This document shows positions 11,559-42,549 of a DNA stretch of 64,000 nt, in pieces. The notes below the pieces were generated by a model that saw only the letters and a program-made list of their open reading frames with translations, had not been told where the DNA came from and did no database searches. How positions within the stretch are numbered: position 1 is the stretch's first letter; every line of letters starts with the position of its first letter. The stretch is from Flagellimonas okinawensis (GTDB lineage: Bacteria; Bacteroidota; Bacteroidia; Flavobacteriales; Flavobacteriaceae), in contig NZ_JARFVA010000004.1 in assembly GCF_029194005.1 (NCBI RefSeq), positions 62,001 to 126,000 of the forward strand, in the 5' to 3' direction. The translations under genes were made by a program, and so were the position numbers.

Positions 11559-11576
11559 CGCTTCAAAACGAGGAAA

Positions 11577-11701
11577 GATTTGACTGATTGCAACCTCTGT
11601 TACCTTTCAAGGTATACGAAAAATGCTAAAGCAGTTCGTGCCGACCAAAATTGGCATCTCTTCATCAAGGGTAAGGAACTTCTTCGCAATTCTGTCAAGT
11701 C
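11577..11701 (+). promoter_or_regulatory. Structured 5' leader of metK, not an S-box
   Basis: The leader can fold into a closed multi-stem RNA. An outer stem GATTTGAC (11577-11584) pairs with GTCAAGTC (11694-11701, one G.U); ATTGC (11587-11591) pairs with GCAAT (11686-11690); TTACC (11600-11604) pairs with GGTAA (11670-11674); and an inner hairpin is formed by ACGAA/TTCGT plus TGC/GCA around a TAAA loop (11616-11639). It lacks the conserved S-box core seen upstream of the other methionine genes here. The region from 11398 to 11576 holds only the promoter. The pairing is by eye; function as a regulator is inferred from position. Confidence 0.45.
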
Positions 11702-15124: not shown

Positions 15125-15260
15125 CAGTTATCAAGAAAGGTGGAGGGAATAGACCCGTTGAAGCCTTAGCAACCCTTGGCCCAGTCAAGAAGGTGCTACA
15201 TTCTATCCCGTTGGGAATAGATAACATCACAGGTAGTTTCTGCCCCTTCTTTCTTATAAC
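15125..15260 (+). promoter_or_regulatory. SAM-I (S-box) riboswitch upstream of metX-thrA fusion
   Basis: The S-box core is plain: TCAAGAAAGGTGGAGGGA, GAAGCCTTAGCAACC and AAGGTGCTACATTC. P1 is GTTATC (15127-15132) with GATAAC (15220-15225); P4 is a short hairpin with a GTT loop. The downstream segment 15249-15260 (CTTTCTTATAAC) can pair with 15127-15139 over 12 bp with one bulged C, which would break P1 and P2, so it is the probable expression platform. SAM binding should lower expression of the downstream genes, as for S-boxes in general. Confidence 0.93.
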
Positions 15261-27850: not shown

Positions 27851-28040
27851 GTGTTATCAAGAAAGGTGGAGGGATTGGACCCTGTGAAGCCTTAGCAACC
27901 CTCGACTTCGAGAAGGTGCTACATTCTACCCCTGTGCTGAACTTGTTTTAGGACCTGATGGAGTATTCATACCTGCCATTAAGTAAAAGGGGACGGATAA
28001 CTAACGAATACATCACAGTATCCATGCACTTTTCTTGATC
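27851..28040 (+). promoter_or_regulatory. SAM-I (S-box) riboswitch upstream of metH-metF
   Basis: The core TCAAGAAAGGTGGAGGGA, GAAGCCTTAGCAACC and GAAGGTGCTACATTC repeats that of the riboswitch at 15125. P1 is GTTATC (27853-27858) with GATAAC (27996-28001). P4 is closed by CCCC (27929-27932) with GGGG (27989-27992) around a loop of 56 nt, against 3 nt in the other copy. As there, a downstream segment (TTTCTTGAT, 28031-28039) is complementary to the 5' side of the aptamer (27856-27864). A weak TTTCTTTG -7-like box lies at 27817. Confidence 0.92.
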
Positions 28041-38319: not shown

Positions 38320-38490
38320 ATTATTCTTTTCATCTTTTTTAAAAAAACCATTTAAGGGGAATTCACAATAAAGTGTCGTTTTCGTAAAATAAAACGCAGC
38401 AAAAAGATCAATTTCAAAAAAAATCAAAAAAAAATTGGGAATCTCTGTGTGTTTCCAATTGAATAGCTAAATTAGCCACCAATTAATGGA

Positions 38491-38565
38491 ATGATGACAA
38501 ACACGTATTTCTGGAACCGTTTTTATTTTTACTTCTTTTTTGGGAGAGAAGCGGGACTGTTATAG
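38491..38565 (+). CDS. Aromatic-rich leader peptide of the pheA operon
   Basis: A 24-codon frame (ATG ATG ... TAG) that is too short to be found by length-based gene calling. Ten of its 24 residues are aromatic: six Phe, three Tyr and one Trp, with seven in a row (FYFYFFF, codons 11-17) after TYFWN. It ends in GREAGLL. The stop codon lies within the left half of the antiterminator described at 38552. Such a peptide would let ribosomes sense charged tRNA-Phe and tRNA-Tyr, as in the pheA leader of enterobacteria. A weak -7-like box TAAATTAG is at 38468. Confidence 0.8.
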   Translation: MMTNTYFWNRFYFYFFFGREAGLL

Positions 38566-38621
38566 ATACGTTTAAAGTATAACCAATTTATAAAGTCCCG
38601 ATACATCGGGACTTTTTTTTT
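38552..38621 (+). terminator. Transcription attenuator (antiterminator and terminator) of pheA
   Basis: The terminator is a perfect 10-bp stem, AAAGTCCCGA (38592-38601) with TCGGGACTTT (38606-38615), loop TACA, and nine T residues from 38613. The competing antiterminator pairs CGGGACT (38552-38558) with AGTCCCG (38594-38600), continued by GTTATA (38559-38564) with TATAAC (38578-38583). A ribosome stalled on the Phe/Tyr codons leaves 38552 onward free to form the antiterminator; one that reaches the stop at 38563 covers it, so the terminator forms. The U-tract ends 3 nt before the pheA ATG. Confidence 0.82.
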
Positions 38622-38624
38622 GCA

Positions 38625-39452
38625 ATGGAATTAAAAGTTGCCATACAAGGAATAAAGGGTTCCAACCACCACCAGGTTGCCACGGACTTTTTTGGGGAAA
38701 ATATAGAACTGCTTGAATGTAGTTCCTTTGATGCCGTTATAGACAGTTTGATGGTAGGTGCCGCGGACAAGGGTATCATGGCTATAGAGAACTCAATTGC
38801 CGGTTCAATAATTCCCAATTACAATTTGGTCTACCACAATAATATCCACGTAATAGGGGAACATTATCTGAACATTCACCATAACCTTATGGTTATGCGG
38901 GGCAAAACTTTTGAGGACATCCAAGAGGTGCATTCACACCCCATGGCATTGTTGCAGTGCAAGGAATTCTTTAAATCGCACCCACAGATCAAGTTGGTAG
39001 AAAGTGTGGACACGGCAGAGACGGCGAAACGAATCAAAGAGGAAGATTTGGGGCATATTGCCGCGATAGCACCTAAAATGGCCGCTGAACTATATGATTT
39101 GGAGATTATTGCTGACAACATTCAGACCATTGTGAACAATTCCACCAGGTTCATCATCTTGAAAAAACAGAACAAGGTACTGCCGGAAGAGGAGATCAAT
39201 AAGGCATCCTTGAGATTTATAACAGATCACAAAAGAGGCAGTTTGGCCACGGTGCTCAACGTGATGAGCGATTGCAATATGAACCTTACCAAAATTCAGT
39301 CCTTGCCCGTCATCGAAACCCCATGGAAGTATGCCTTTTTTGTGGATGTCACTTTTGATAAATACGAGCACTTTGCCAAAACCAAATCTTTGATGCATAT
39401 CATGGCAGAGGATTTTAAGGTGTTGGGCGAATATAAAAATGCATTATTGTAA
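38625..39452 (+). CDS. pheA: Prephenate dehydratase
   Basis: A 275-residue monofunctional enzyme that turns prephenate into phenylpyruvate for phenylalanine synthesis. It begins MELKVAIQGIKGSNHHQVAT and has MAIENSIAGSIIPNYNLV, the Thr-Arg-Phe active-site segment NNSTRFIILKKQ, and a C-terminal ACT domain with KRGSLATVLNVMSD. In the effector motif the usual ESRP reads QSLP (TKIQSLPVIET), so feedback by phenylalanine may differ from the enterobacterial enzyme. It is the first gene of a four-gene aromatic operon and overlaps the next start by 1 nt. Confidence 0.93.
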   Translation: MELKVAIQGIKGSNHHQVATDFFGENIELLECSSFDAVIDSLMVGAADKGIMAIENSIAGSIIPNYNLVYHNNIHVIGEHYLNIHHNLMVMRGKTFEDIQEVHSHPMALLQCKEFFKSHPQIKLVESVDTAETAKRIKEEDLGHIAAIAPKMAAELYDLEIIADNIQTIVNNSTRFIILKKQNKVLPEEEINKASLRFITDHKRGSLATVLNVMSDCNMNLTKIQSLPVIETPWKYAFFVDVTFDKYEHFAKTKSLMHIMAEDFKVLGEYKNALL

Positions 39453-40594
39453 TGATTACAGCAGATCGATTAAATAACATACAGGAATATTACTTCTCTA
39501 AAAAGTTAAGGGAAGTCAGGGGATTGATGGCCGAAGGCAGACCAATCATCAATATGGGAATTGGCAGTCCCGATTTGGCACCCTCGCCACAGGTCCTGGA
39601 AACTTTAAGGGATTCCATCATAGAAGCCGGTGCCCATCAGTATCAGAGCTATCAAGGGTTACCTGAATTAAGGACCGCAATTGCCGATTTTTATTTGCAG
39701 AAGTTTGATGTGTCGGTTGACTCAAATTCCGAGATTTTACCTTTAATGGGTTCTAAAGAAGGGATTATGCACATCAGTATGGCCTTTTTAAATGAAGGGG
39801 ACGAGGTGCTTTTGCCCAACCCTGGGTACCCGACCTATGCGTCCGTAACAAACTTGGTAGGTGGGGTGCCTGTCACTTACGACCTAAAAGCAGAAAATGG
39901 TTGGTTCCCTGATTTAGAGGAACTTTCCAAGAAAGATTTGTCCAAAGTAAAGTTAATGTGGATCAGTTATCCGCATATGCCAACCGGAGCTACAGCGACA
40001 AAAGAGCAATTGAAGTCTTTGGTAAATTTTGCCAAGGAGAATGAAATCCTTTTGGTCAACGACAATCCATACAGTTTTGTGCTGTCCACTAATCCAACCA
40101 GTATTCTGTCTATTCAAGGAGCTAAAGATTGCACTTTAGAGCTGAACAGTTTGAGCAAAACATTCAATATGGCGGGTTGGCGTGTTGGGATGGTACTAGG
40201 GAGTGCAGAGCACATCAACGCAGTGTTGAAGGTGAAAAGCAATATGGATTCTGGAATGTTCTACGGAATACAGAAAGGTGCAGTTGCCGCATTGAAGAGC
40301 GGCCCAGAATGGTTTGAAGCATTGGATAAGGTGTACAAAACACGACGCGAGTTGATGTTTCAATTGGCAGATAAATTGGGCTGTACCTATGATAAAAATG
40401 CGGTAGGAATGTTTGTTTGGTGCAAACTGCCAAATGGAGCAGCACCATCTGAAGAATTTATTGATAACGTATTATACGACAAAGATATTTTTATTGCCCC
40501 AGGGACCATATTTGGGAGCAATGGAGAGGGCTATATCCGTTTTTCACTTTGTGTAAGCGAAGAAAAAATCAAAGAGGCCATAGAAAGATTTTAG
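39452..40594 (+). CDS. Class I/II aminotransferase, probably aromatic
   Basis: A 380-residue fold type I PLP aminotransferase. It has GIGSPDLAPSPQVLETL, NPGYPTYASVTNLVGGVPV, MWISYPHMPTGATA and the PLP-lysine segment ELNSLSKTFNMAGWRVGMVL, and the late Arg in YIRFSLCVSEEKI that would bind the substrate carboxylate. Its place between pheA and tyrA points to transamination of phenylpyruvate and 4-hydroxyphenylpyruvate, completing Phe and Tyr synthesis; aspartate or LL-diaminopimelate aminotransferase activity is an alternative. The stop is 3 nt before tyrA. Confidence 0.88.
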   Translation: MITADRLNNIQEYYFSKKLREVRGLMAEGRPIINMGIGSPDLAPSPQVLETLRDSIIEAGAHQYQSYQGLPELRTAIADFYLQKFDVSVDSNSEILPLMGSKEGIMHISMAFLNEGDEVLLPNPGYPTYASVTNLVGGVPVTYDLKAENGWFPDLEELSKKDLSKVKLMWISYPHMPTGATATKEQLKSLVNFAKENEILLVNDNPYSFVLSTNPTSILSIQGAKDCTLELNSLSKTFNMAGWRVGMVLGSAEHINAVLKVKSNMDSGMFYGIQKGAVAALKSGPEWFEALDKVYKTRRELMFQLADKLGCTYDKNAVGMFVWCKLPNGAAPSEEFIDNVLYDKDIFIAPGTIFGSNGEGYIRFSLCVSEEKIKEAIERF

Positions 40595-40597
40595 CTT

Positions 40598-41458
40598 ATG
40601 AGAGTAGTGATTATAGGAGTTGGACTGATCGGCGGTTCTTTTGCCATGGATGTAAAAAAGTTACATCCTGATGCTGAAATTATCGGTGTGGACAAAAGTG
40701 AAGAGCATTTGGATGAAGCCCTTCAGCTACAAATCATAGATAAAAAAGGGGATTACTCGGCTTTGTCAAATGCGGATTTGGTTTATGTGGGAATCCCGGT
40801 CAATGTTTTGGTCACCGAATTGCCCAACATATTGGATGCGGTTGGAGATGAAACCGTGGTAATGGATGCCGGTTCCACCAAACGATTAATCTGTGAGCAA
40901 GTTGCTGAACATCCGAACCGAAGGAATTTCATGGCCTGTCACCCCATTGCGGGTACTGAATTTTCTGGACCGGCCGCAGCGTTTCAGGGCTTGTATACAG
41001 GTAAGACGATGATTATTTGCGAAGTGGAAAAAACAGCTTTCAAGCTTCAAGAAAGAGCTTTGGCCATTTTTCAAGATATAGGGATGCGTATTCGGTACAT
41101 GAATCCCGAGGCACACGATAAACATATAGCGTACGTATCTCATTTATCACACATTAGCTCTTTTATGTTGGGAAAGACAGTTATCGAGAAAGAAAAAAAT
41201 GAGCGTGATATTTTTGACATGGCGGGGAGTGGTTTTGAGAGCACTGTTCGCTTGGCAAAAAGTTCACCCGATATGTGGACGCCAATATTTGAACAGAATA
41301 AAGATAATGTTGTGGAAACATTGGAAGAATACATTCAAAACCTTACCACGTTTAAGCAATTGATTTTGGACAATGATTTTGAAAATGTCCACCAAGAAAT
41401 GAGTAACACCAATAAAATAAAACAAATACTAAAAGGAATACCACTTACAAAAAAATAG
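40598..41458 (+). CDS. tyrA: Prephenate dehydrogenase
   Basis: A 286-residue NAD(P)-dependent enzyme that oxidatively decarboxylates prephenate to 4-hydroxyphenylpyruvate for tyrosine synthesis. The nucleotide-binding start is MRVVIIGVGLIGGSFAMDV; the catalytic region has ACHPIAGTEFSGPAAAFQG and the conserved His in DKHIAYVSHLSHISSFML. No chorismate mutase or ACT domain is fused. It sits 3 nt after the aminotransferase and 8 nt before the DAHP synthase/chorismate mutase gene. Confidence 0.94.
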   Translation: MRVVIIGVGLIGGSFAMDVKKLHPDAEIIGVDKSEEHLDEALQLQIIDKKGDYSALSNADLVYVGIPVNVLVTELPNILDAVGDETVVMDAGSTKRLICEQVAEHPNRRNFMACHPIAGTEFSGPAAAFQGLYTGKTMIICEVEKTAFKLQERALAIFQDIGMRIRYMNPEAHDKHIAYVSHLSHISSFMLGKTVIEKEKNERDIFDMAGSGFESTVRLAKSSPDMWTPIFEQNKDNVVETLEEYIQNLTTFKQLILDNDFENVHQEMSNTNKIKQILKGIPLTKK

Positions 41459-41466
41459 AGAGTATT

Positions 41467-42549
41467 ATGGAAAACAAAAAGGAAATGAGGAAATGGTTGG
41501 ATGACATGGATTTAGGTCATCCATTGGTTGTGGCTGGACCATGCAGCGCTGAAACCGAAGATCAAGTGTTGAAAATAGCACATGAGCTAAAGGATACCGA
41601 TGTAAGCTATTACCGCGCTGGAATCTGGAAACCAAGAACTCGTCCAGGTAATTTTGAAGGAGTAGGAGCCATCGGATTGAAGTGGTTGCAAAAAGTAAAA
41701 GAAGAAACCGGTCTTAAAACAGCTACCGAAGTTGCCAATAGAGCGCACGTAGATCTTGCCTTGGAGCACGATGTCGATCTGTTGTGGATCGGAGCACGTT
41801 CCACGGTAAGTCCATTTATCGTTCAAGAAATTGCAGATGCTTTGGAAGGAACGGATAAAATTGTTCTGGTAAAGAACCCTGTTAACCCGGACCTATCGCT
41901 TTGGTTGGGCGCAGTGGAGCGCTTGCACTCTGCCAATATTGAAAAATTGGGTGTGATTCACAGGGGTTTCTCCACTTACGAGAAAACAAAATACCGTAAT
42001 ATTCCGGAATGGCAGTTGGCCATTGAGCTACAGACCAAGTTCCCCGATCTACCTATTATCAACGATCCTAGTCACATTACAGGAAAGCGCGATATGGTGT
42101 TCGATGTGTCCCAAACCGCGCTGGATTTGAATTTTGATGGTTTGATGATCGAAACGCATTACGATCCGGATAATGCATGGAGCGATGCAGCCCAGCAAGT
42201 AACTCCCAAAACCTTGATTCAAATGATGAAGGATTTGCGTATTAGGAAGGAGACTGATGAGGAGGCGGAATACAATAACAATTTGAGCAATCTCAGAGCA
42301 CAGATCGATGTTTTGGACAATCAACTGATCGACCTTTTGGGAAAAAGAATGAAGGTTTCCGACGGAATTGGAGAGTTGAAAAAACAAAAGAACGTAGCAG
42401 TCCTTCAAAGTAACCGTTGGAACGCCATTTTGGGCAATATGATCTTGGAAGGTGAACAAAGAGGATTGAGCGAAGAGTTTGTTTTGAAAATGTTCAAGGC
42501 AATTCACCAAGAATCCATCAACCACCAAGAAAAGATCATCAACGCATAA
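41467..42549 (+). CDS. Bifunctional DAHP synthase / chorismate mutase
   Basis: A 360-residue fusion. Residues 1-260 are a type I-beta (KDO8PS-like) DAHP synthase with VVAGPCSAETEDQVLKIA, the phosphoenolpyruvate-binding GIWKPRTRPGNFEGVGAIGL, GVIHRGFSTYEKTKYRN and NDPSHITGKRDMV. Residues about 270-355 are an AroQ chorismate mutase (LRAQIDVLDNQLIDLLGKRM, GELKKQKNVAVLQSNRW). It joins the first step of the shikimate pathway to the first step of the Phe/Tyr branch, a link seen in several Bacteroidota and Bacillus. Binding of chorismate or prephenate at the mutase domain may feed back on the synthase. It ends the aromatic operon, followed by a terminator. Confidence 0.93.
   Translation: MENKKEMRKWLDDMDLGHPLVVAGPCSAETEDQVLKIAHELKDTDVSYYRAGIWKPRTRPGNFEGVGAIGLKWLQKVKEETGLKTATEVANRAHVDLALEHDVDLLWIGARSTVSPFIVQEIADALEGTDKIVLVKNPVNPDLSLWLGAVERLHSANIEKLGVIHRGFSTYEKTKYRNIPEWQLAIELQTKFPDLPIINDPSHITGKRDMVFDVSQTALDLNFDGLMIETHYDPDNAWSDAAQQVTPKTLIQMMKDLRIRKETDEEAEYNNNLSNLRAQIDVLDNQLIDLLGKRMKVSDGIGELKKQKNVAVLQSNRWNAILGNMILEGEQRGLSEEFVLKMFKAIHQESINHQEKIINA

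Follow-up and report, generated by a model that had tools for sequence, protein, structure and literature searches.

The pheA locus and its leader reading frame

The locus lies within a 64-kb stretch of DNA, referred to here as the window, and consists of a short, aromatic-rich leader reading frame, three alternative RNA helices and an operon headed by a prephenate dehydratase gene, pheA (Table 1). The order of the genes behind the leader (pheA, aminotransferase, tyrA, DAHP synthase/chorismate mutase), proposed in an earlier note on this DNA, is borne out by Pfam and NCBIfam matches. The ACT domain of PheA gave a match below the cut-off only. Several chorismate mutase matches fall at about residues 265–359 of the DAHP synthase/chorismate mutase fusion, and a homologue of this protein (L161) scores above both Pfam cut-offs.

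Table 1. Features of the pheA leader and operon, in window coordinates.
Feature	Position	Strand	Remarks
Likely -7 box, Bacteroidota-type promoter	38468..38475	+	TAAATTAG; matches TAnnTTnG
Leader ORF	38491..38565	+	MMTNTYFWNRFYFYFFFGREAGLL*; 24 codons; 10/24 residues F/Y/W
Segment 1	38503..38517	+	5' side of 1:2 hairpin; leader codons 4-8 (T-Y-F-W-N)
Control codons	38521..38541	+	FYFYFFF; end 10 nt 5' of antiterminator arm
Segment 2a, antiterminator 5' arm	38552..38558	+	CGGGACT; pairs with AGTCCCG at 38594-38600
Segment 2b, stop-codon region	38559..38571	+	3' side of 1:2 hairpin; reused inside extended antiterminator
Segment 3	38594..38600	+	AGTCCCG; antiterminator 3' arm and terminator 5' arm
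Intrinsic terminator, segments 3:4	38592..38621	+	stem 38592-38615, 10 pairs, loop 4; T run 38613-38621
pheA, prephenate dehydratase	38625..39452	+	PDT domain, PF00800, 197.8 bits (cut-off 25.2)
Class I/II-type aminotransferase	39452..40594	+	best NCBIfam match 408.3 bits, cut-off 507 not reached
tyrA, prephenate dehydrogenase	40598..41458	+	NF006307, 391.6 bits (cut-off 295)
DAHP synthase/chorismate mutase fusion	41467..42549	+	NF009239, 188.5 bits, under cut-off 279

The leader had been described in the same note as a 24-codon frame with 10 aromatic residues, and the translation confirms this; in relatives, the leader starts at what is here the second ATG (38494). Among the 1505 short ORFs of the window (10–40 aa, ATG, GTG or TTG starts, both strands, tallied per stop codon), it is the sole frame with 10 aromatic residues in 12, the runner-up having seven, and 18 of these ORFs have at least six aromatic residues per 12. 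In 50 leaders of 23 codons, the aromatic columns differ by 1.6% at the first codon position, 10% at the second and 20% at the third, and the second-position changes mostly exchange one aromatic residue for another; judged from such substitution patterns, the leader frame is under coding constraint.

In 76 of 89 relatives, the motif TAnnTTnG, which we take to be the consensus of the Bacteroidota -7 box, occurs no more than 60 nt 5' of the leader ATG, versus 7 of 89 in the adjoining 60-nt control; in 50 of these 76 it lies 25–27 nt ahead of the ATG. A sigma-70 scan returned 2 sites, versus 1.6 expected. This set of 89 relatives, used throughout as the main set, leaves out 18 rows considered close to others and the loci L063, L103 and L104. 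The window also holds two SAM riboswitches (RF00162) and one SAM-II riboswitch (RF01726), at 15125–15227, 27851–27964 and 11564–11639, all on the + strand.

RNA helices of the leader

In the terminator, 98.3% of 770 cells are paired across the 89 relatives, nine of nine pairs have changed on both sides, and pairing was as high in 0 of 500 shuffles. The earlier note had placed this stem at 38592–38615, which stands, but its addition of nine T to the stem does not, as three of the nine T are part of the stem and were thus counted twice. It had correctly recognized AGTCCCG as common to terminator and antiterminator, and the limits that it gave for the latter (38552–38564 with 38578–38600) are about right, the core being 38552–38558 with 38594–38600 and the helix being extended inwards in the window fold; the leader stop codon (38563–38565) does lie, as it had stated, on the 5' side of the antiterminator. 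In a register-free duplex comparison, in which each arm was paired with its own and with the others' segment 3, the own partner gave -11.97 kcal/mol versus -10.04 kcal/mol for permuted partners (0 of 2000 permutations; uncorrected for kinship). On a plain MAFFT alignment, the antiterminator is 79.8% paired and 53 of 500 shuffles are as high, a count blurred by the one-column shift that this alignment gives to ACGAGAC-type leaders. The three strands vary in concert, reading CGGGAC/GTCCCG/CGGGAC in most relatives, CGAGAC/GTCTCG in another group and GGATTGT/ACAATCC in Flavobacterium, with GAGGCTT, GAGCGGGA and GAGCGGTC in other families.

A further helix, 1:2 (38503–38517 with 38559–38571), is an addition to the two stems of the earlier note. 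Across the relatives, it brings the stop region together with roughly the first 10 codons of the leader, with a mean of -10.57 kcal/mol for own strands versus -7.24 kcal/mol for permuted ones (0 of 5000; uncorrected for kinship), and shifted control windows were null (706 of 1000 and 363 of 1000 permutations). With helices 1:2, 2:3 and 3:4 supported, all four segments of a classical attenuator are therefore present. Stem-breaking substitutions without compensation, which the earlier note would have held against its own reading, were sought, with the outcome for the terminator that all nine pairs have changed on both sides and for the antiterminator and the 1:2 helix that own partners pair better than permuted ones. 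The folding that it had proposed, run on 38486–38630, gave a minimum free energy of -32.9 kcal/mol (z = -2.53), a value reached by 2 of 200 shuffles.

Position of the control codons and predicted folding states

The last codon of the aromatic run is separated from the arm by 10–11 nt in 63 of the 89 relatives (range 7–14, sd 1.2). The distance from stop codon to arm has an sd of 4.5, and the stop falls before, on or after the arm, depending on the relative. Flavobacterium leaders (L217–L296) have a short form, which terminates close to the arm with FFFSRS (MATNRFYFSNNFYFFFSRS), and a long form, which continues with DCAMVI, and the leader of Flavobacterium johnsoniae CI04 (L262) is MAANRFYFSNNFYFFFSRSQDCAMVI. 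Some of the short and long Flavobacterium leaders are separated by CAG versus TAG at one codon. As read from these comparisons, stalling within the run would require such a near-constant run-to-arm spacing, and a functional tail of the peptide would not permit this arrangement. With the footprint size that we assume for the ribosome, the control codons are placed such that the arm would be exposed when the ribosome stalls on them and covered once it has reached the stop codon.

The structure predicted for the window's own leader is the antiterminator with a ribosome at the last Phe codon (-18.0 kcal/mol), the terminator with a ribosome at the stop codon (-14.4 kcal/mol), and the 1:2 hairpin plus terminator with no ribosome (-31.6 kcal/mol). 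The stop state and the ribosome-free state yield the terminator in 89 of 89 relatives. At equilibrium over the whole leader, the stall state gave the antiterminator in only 11 of the 89 relatives and the terminator in 78, with the antiterminator in 5 of 1780 leaders with a shuffled spacer; the model therefore requires folding during transcription, on which known attenuators likewise rely. When the nascent RNA extends to the end of segment 3 and a ribosome is stalled, the arm pairs with segment 3 in 88 of 89 relatives (483 of 1780 for shuffled spacers). This pairing persists in 52 of 89 nascent leaders with no ribosome, so the 1:2 hairpin does not clearly hold the untranslated leader in the terminated state.

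Distribution across Flavobacteriaceae and Bacteroidia

The leader is present at all 103 Flavobacteriaceae pheA loci that were read, 35 from the window's genus and 68 further ones; in that genus, pheA was matched in 35 of 36 genomes, the window's own included, and the leader lies upstream in all 35. The placing of the window in Flavobacteriaceae follows from G327, a genome of the same family whose PheA protein is 100% identical to that of Flavobacterium anhuiense. Forty of the family loci (L059–L098) were hand-picked among the matches listed, at identities of at least 59%, and a search with a covariance model of the leader, R1, serves as the unpicked check. A Flavobacterium query had 516 named relatives, and the 80 best of these form a named set (77 bear Flavobacterium in the title and three 'Flavobacteriaceae bacterium'); FYFS is in frame and the leader-plus-terminator test is passed at 80 of 80 of its loci. 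Aromatic codon runs, the lack of which in homologous upstream regions the earlier note had named as contrary evidence, are thus found at 103 of 103 family loci and 80 of 80 named loci. The leaders at L063, L104, L282 and L287 were read by eye, and the frame picked by script for L102 was a wrong one; the leader of L063, which lies farther upstream of the gene, is matched by R1 too.

Of 299 family genomes, 278 have an R1 match with E <= 0.01 and 277 have a match to pheA. The two occur together in 270 genomes and are both missing from 14; pheA alone is found in seven of the 277 pheA-bearing genomes, and R1 alone in eight genomes (Fisher p = 8e-14). The model was built with sequences from 66 of the 299 genomes, and 212 of the other 233 match. 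The position of the R1 match ahead of pheA was verified for the loci read only. The window's own genome has one strong R1 match (E 4.2e-18), the next having an E-value of 0.016. Five weak matches (L165, L168, L169, L170 and L172), all with E > 1e-4, proved not to be leaders, so the tallies at E <= 0.01 include chance matches, more of them outside the family.

Across the class, 81 of 346 genomes have an R1 match with E <= 0.01 (13 belong to Flavobacteriaceae), and the 18 best R1 loci from other families all precede a prephenate dehydratase-like ORF, as judged by eye (one Pfam-confirmed). In other families of the same order, the leader was found at six of seven loci (L104 by eye), and none was found upstream of pheA at the seventh, L103. 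Outside Flavobacteriaceae, 37 pheA loci were considered, comprising 36 of 37 pheA matches (the partial G471 being left out) and G052. The strict leader-plus-terminator test was passed by 22 of these, by none on the reverse strand and by 0 of 740 shuffles; L299 has a leader by eye, with a short T run, and 14 of the 37 fail when L299 is counted as positive.

Proposed mechanism and alternative explanations

These results suggest that the pheA-tyrA-DAHP synthase operon is tuned by a ribosome-mediated transcription attenuator, which would respond to how much charged tRNA-Phe, and probably tRNA-Tyr, is available; we assign this reading a probability of roughly 93%. Ribosome-mediated Phe/Tyr attenuation had been put forward in the earlier note, and the conservation of the leader and the compensating changes in its stems argue for it. 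The parts already established, by comparison of sequences, are the reading frame, the three alternative helices and the near-fixed run-to-arm distance. When Phe or Tyr is scarce, the ribosome would stall in FYFYFFF and cover segment 1, with the arm, which begins at 38552, barely exposed; the arm would then pair with segment 3 as the latter exits the polymerase, pre-empting the terminator and allowing the operon to be transcribed. When both are ample, the ribosome would reach the stop codon and cover the arm, segments 3 and 4 would pair, and transcription would end before pheA. In the least supported step, that of the untranslated leader, the 1:2 hairpin should occupy segment 2 and favour termination. 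Such an attenuator would mark, for Flavobacteriaceae and much of Bacteroidia, a specific point at which the control of aromatic amino acid synthesis can be tested.

A terminator with an alternative fold would look similar if it were run by a riboswitch, a T-box or a protein-binding attenuator, with the short frame being incidental, and the element at 38592–38615 is indeed terminator-like. This seems very improbable, given that no Rfam family reaches its gathering score at the locus, the three matches in the window (SAM, SAM-II and SAM) lying elsewhere, and that the best weak Rfam match is to a leader-peptide family (Phe_leader, 32.8 bits); an incidental frame would, moreover, account neither for the coding constraint nor for an arm positioned by its distance from the aromatic run. 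We consider it just as improbable that the leader works as a peptide, whether by causing arrest as a nascent chain or as a stable small protein, and not through the sensing of its codons. In one part of the family, TYFWNGFYFYFFF is kept beyond plain aromatic content, as would be expected of such a peptide, but the sequence has been freely rebuilt elsewhere (RFYFSNSFYFFFSRS; TYFSNWFYFFFSKRNE in L083; AYFYGFYFYFTSKSRD in L138) with the aromatic runs kept, and the C-terminus of the leader is dispensable. The conserved W-N stretch, for its part, sits in the 1:2 helix, where L036 and L047, with Y for W, still pair.

The least probable alternative, which we regard as highly unlikely, is that of a terminator alone, with an upstream ORF boosting pheA translation by reinitiation. 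Reinitiation at leader genes has been proposed in a passage of PMC4833913, with a peak of distances at 11–14 bp in Bacteroidetes, whereas the leader stop is 59 nt ahead of the pheA ATG in the window and this distance is highly variable among the relatives; reinitiation would also leave unexplained why the stop region pairs with segment 1 and the arm with segment 3. Sensing of Trp through the conserved W codon was also considered: W is held by 65 of the 89 leaders of the main set and by 4 of 78 script-found leaders of the named set (one of the four being a spurious frame). Such sensing is doubtful, given the few W in the named set and the position of the codon inside the 1:2 helix, and pairing, rather than sensing, may be what keeps the Trp codon.

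Relation to known systems

The working principle is most likely that of trpL/pheL-type attenuation, as its sequence features suggest, and this mechanism is already textbook knowledge. In Escherichia coli, pheA is preceded by pheL, a Phe-rich leader ORF with a terminator (PMC11802643), an arrangement that the window shares; its leader differs in having prominent Tyr codons, and its operon in being headed by a PDT domain without chorismate mutase, followed by tyrA and DAHP synthase. The weak match to Phe_leader (RF01859) spans the full length of the model (E 3e-4 to 5e-4), but it is below the gathering score of 55 and many pairs of the long helix of the model are not formed.

The earlier note knew of no described Phe/Tyr leader, and this has to be corrected, as AroR of Corynebacterium glutamicum is one: it has a Phe-Tyr-Phe leader before aroF, on which limitation for Phe, not Tyr, acts (Neshat 2014, as described in PMC11802643). 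Compared on the basis of that description, AroR and the window leader both place codons for Phe and Tyr ahead of an operon with DAHP synthase, and both would involve a stalling ribosome, as is predicted for the window leader; AroR belongs to another phylum, has Phe-Tyr-Phe only and is described there as unaffected by Tyr supply.

A structured 5' element of pheA with no Rfam match, conserved in Flavobacteriaceae genera, has been reported in Flavobacterium psychrophilum, together with clues to leader-peptide attenuation at amino acid operons generally (PMC9723704). The gene, the family and the lack of an Rfam match are the same as for the window leader, and the section of PMC9723704 concerned describes the element without a leader sequence or mechanism. 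By analogy with what that section describes, the window leader is likely to be this element; F. psychrophilum is absent from the 80 named loci.

Bacteroid-trp RNA (RF01692), a candidate cis-regulatory RNA of Bacteroidetes (PMC2864571) presented as an attenuator-like element of trp operons (PMC6414381), resembles the window leader, as far as these descriptions go, in being a candidate attenuator-like RNA from Bacteroidetes. It is absent from the 29 Rfam matches obtained at the locus up to E = 10, and the window leader differs from it in having one Trp codon only and in preceding pheA, not trp genes. A comparative study of attenuation by Lopatovskaya, from 2010, may contain relevant predictions. 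Among the titles and abstracts listed in a literature search, with subscription papers mostly outside its scope, none but PMC9723704 concerned a Phe/Tyr leader in Bacteroidota and none a Tyr leader before phenylalanine hydroxylase.

Leaders before other genes

Of the 22 family genomes that gave no match to pheA, 21 were searched for PF00800, with the window's own genome as positive control; the control alone was matched. G158 is counted among the genomes lacking pheA, but its leader (L162) lies at a contig end, so pheA may merely be unassembled. Two genomes of one genus, G088 and G280, lack PF00800 and PF02153 and have kept tryptophan synthase alpha; their leader, with NTWWSNSKFYLKR or NTWWSYSKFYPNR, precedes DAHP synthase/chorismate mutase alone. 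The WW leader before DAHP synthase/chorismate mutase (L161 and L163) keeps F and Y at the usual place, so that sensing of Trp there is a reading rather than a result. In another genus, G097 and G284 lack PF00800 and PF02153, and a leader with NTYYYYPIL or AIYYYYPIL precedes phenylalanine hydroxylase (PF00351). A frame with scattered Y, W and F before an aminotransferase in G294 (L167) was read as decayed and left uncounted.

The hydroxylase leaders were followed across Bacteroidia at 42 of the 43 best matches in the class, the fragment G596 being left out (L334–L375). A Tyr-run leader with a terminator precedes phenylalanine 4-hydroxylase at 17 of these 42 loci (0 of 42 on the reverse strand and 0 of 840 shuffles), and the remaining 25 have no Tyr-run leader; some of the 17 are close kin, the leaders of L366 and L368 being identical and those of L363 and L364 nearly so. 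The frames contain YYYYY or YYYY before a short phenylalanine 4-hydroxylase gene, as in L334, L336, L342, L353 and L356, with 3–5 Tyr and 0–3 Phe each. The same run test with 17 other residues gave 0–5 of 42 loci, Leu being highest (5) and Phe giving 1. In these leaders, the 1:2 helix was exceeded by 0 of 5000 permutations and the antiterminator, which is less supported, by 30 of 5000; the run-to-arm spacing is looser (sd 3.0).

The codon content of the leader thus appears, on the sequences compared, to shift in the expected direction before other genes. It is fairly probable that attenuation of aromatic genes in Bacteroidia forms one system, with three-helix leaders placed before varied genes and codons that track the product: F and Y before pheA-tyrA, WW, with single F and Y kept, before DAHP synthase alone in a genus lacking pheA and tyrA, and a Tyr run before the hydroxylase. 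The lost pheA, the changed downstream gene and the changed codons would then be natural experiments on the logic of attenuation through evolution. If this is true, the Tyr leader before phenylalanine 4-hydroxylase would be a tyrosine-specific leader-peptide attenuator, of which we know of no description. Phenylalanine hydroxylase is often regarded as catabolic, and the Tyr leaders raise the question of whether it serves tyrosine supply in these bacteria. The six-frame match to the hydroxylase that follows the Tyr leader of L181 (G284) contains an internal TAG.
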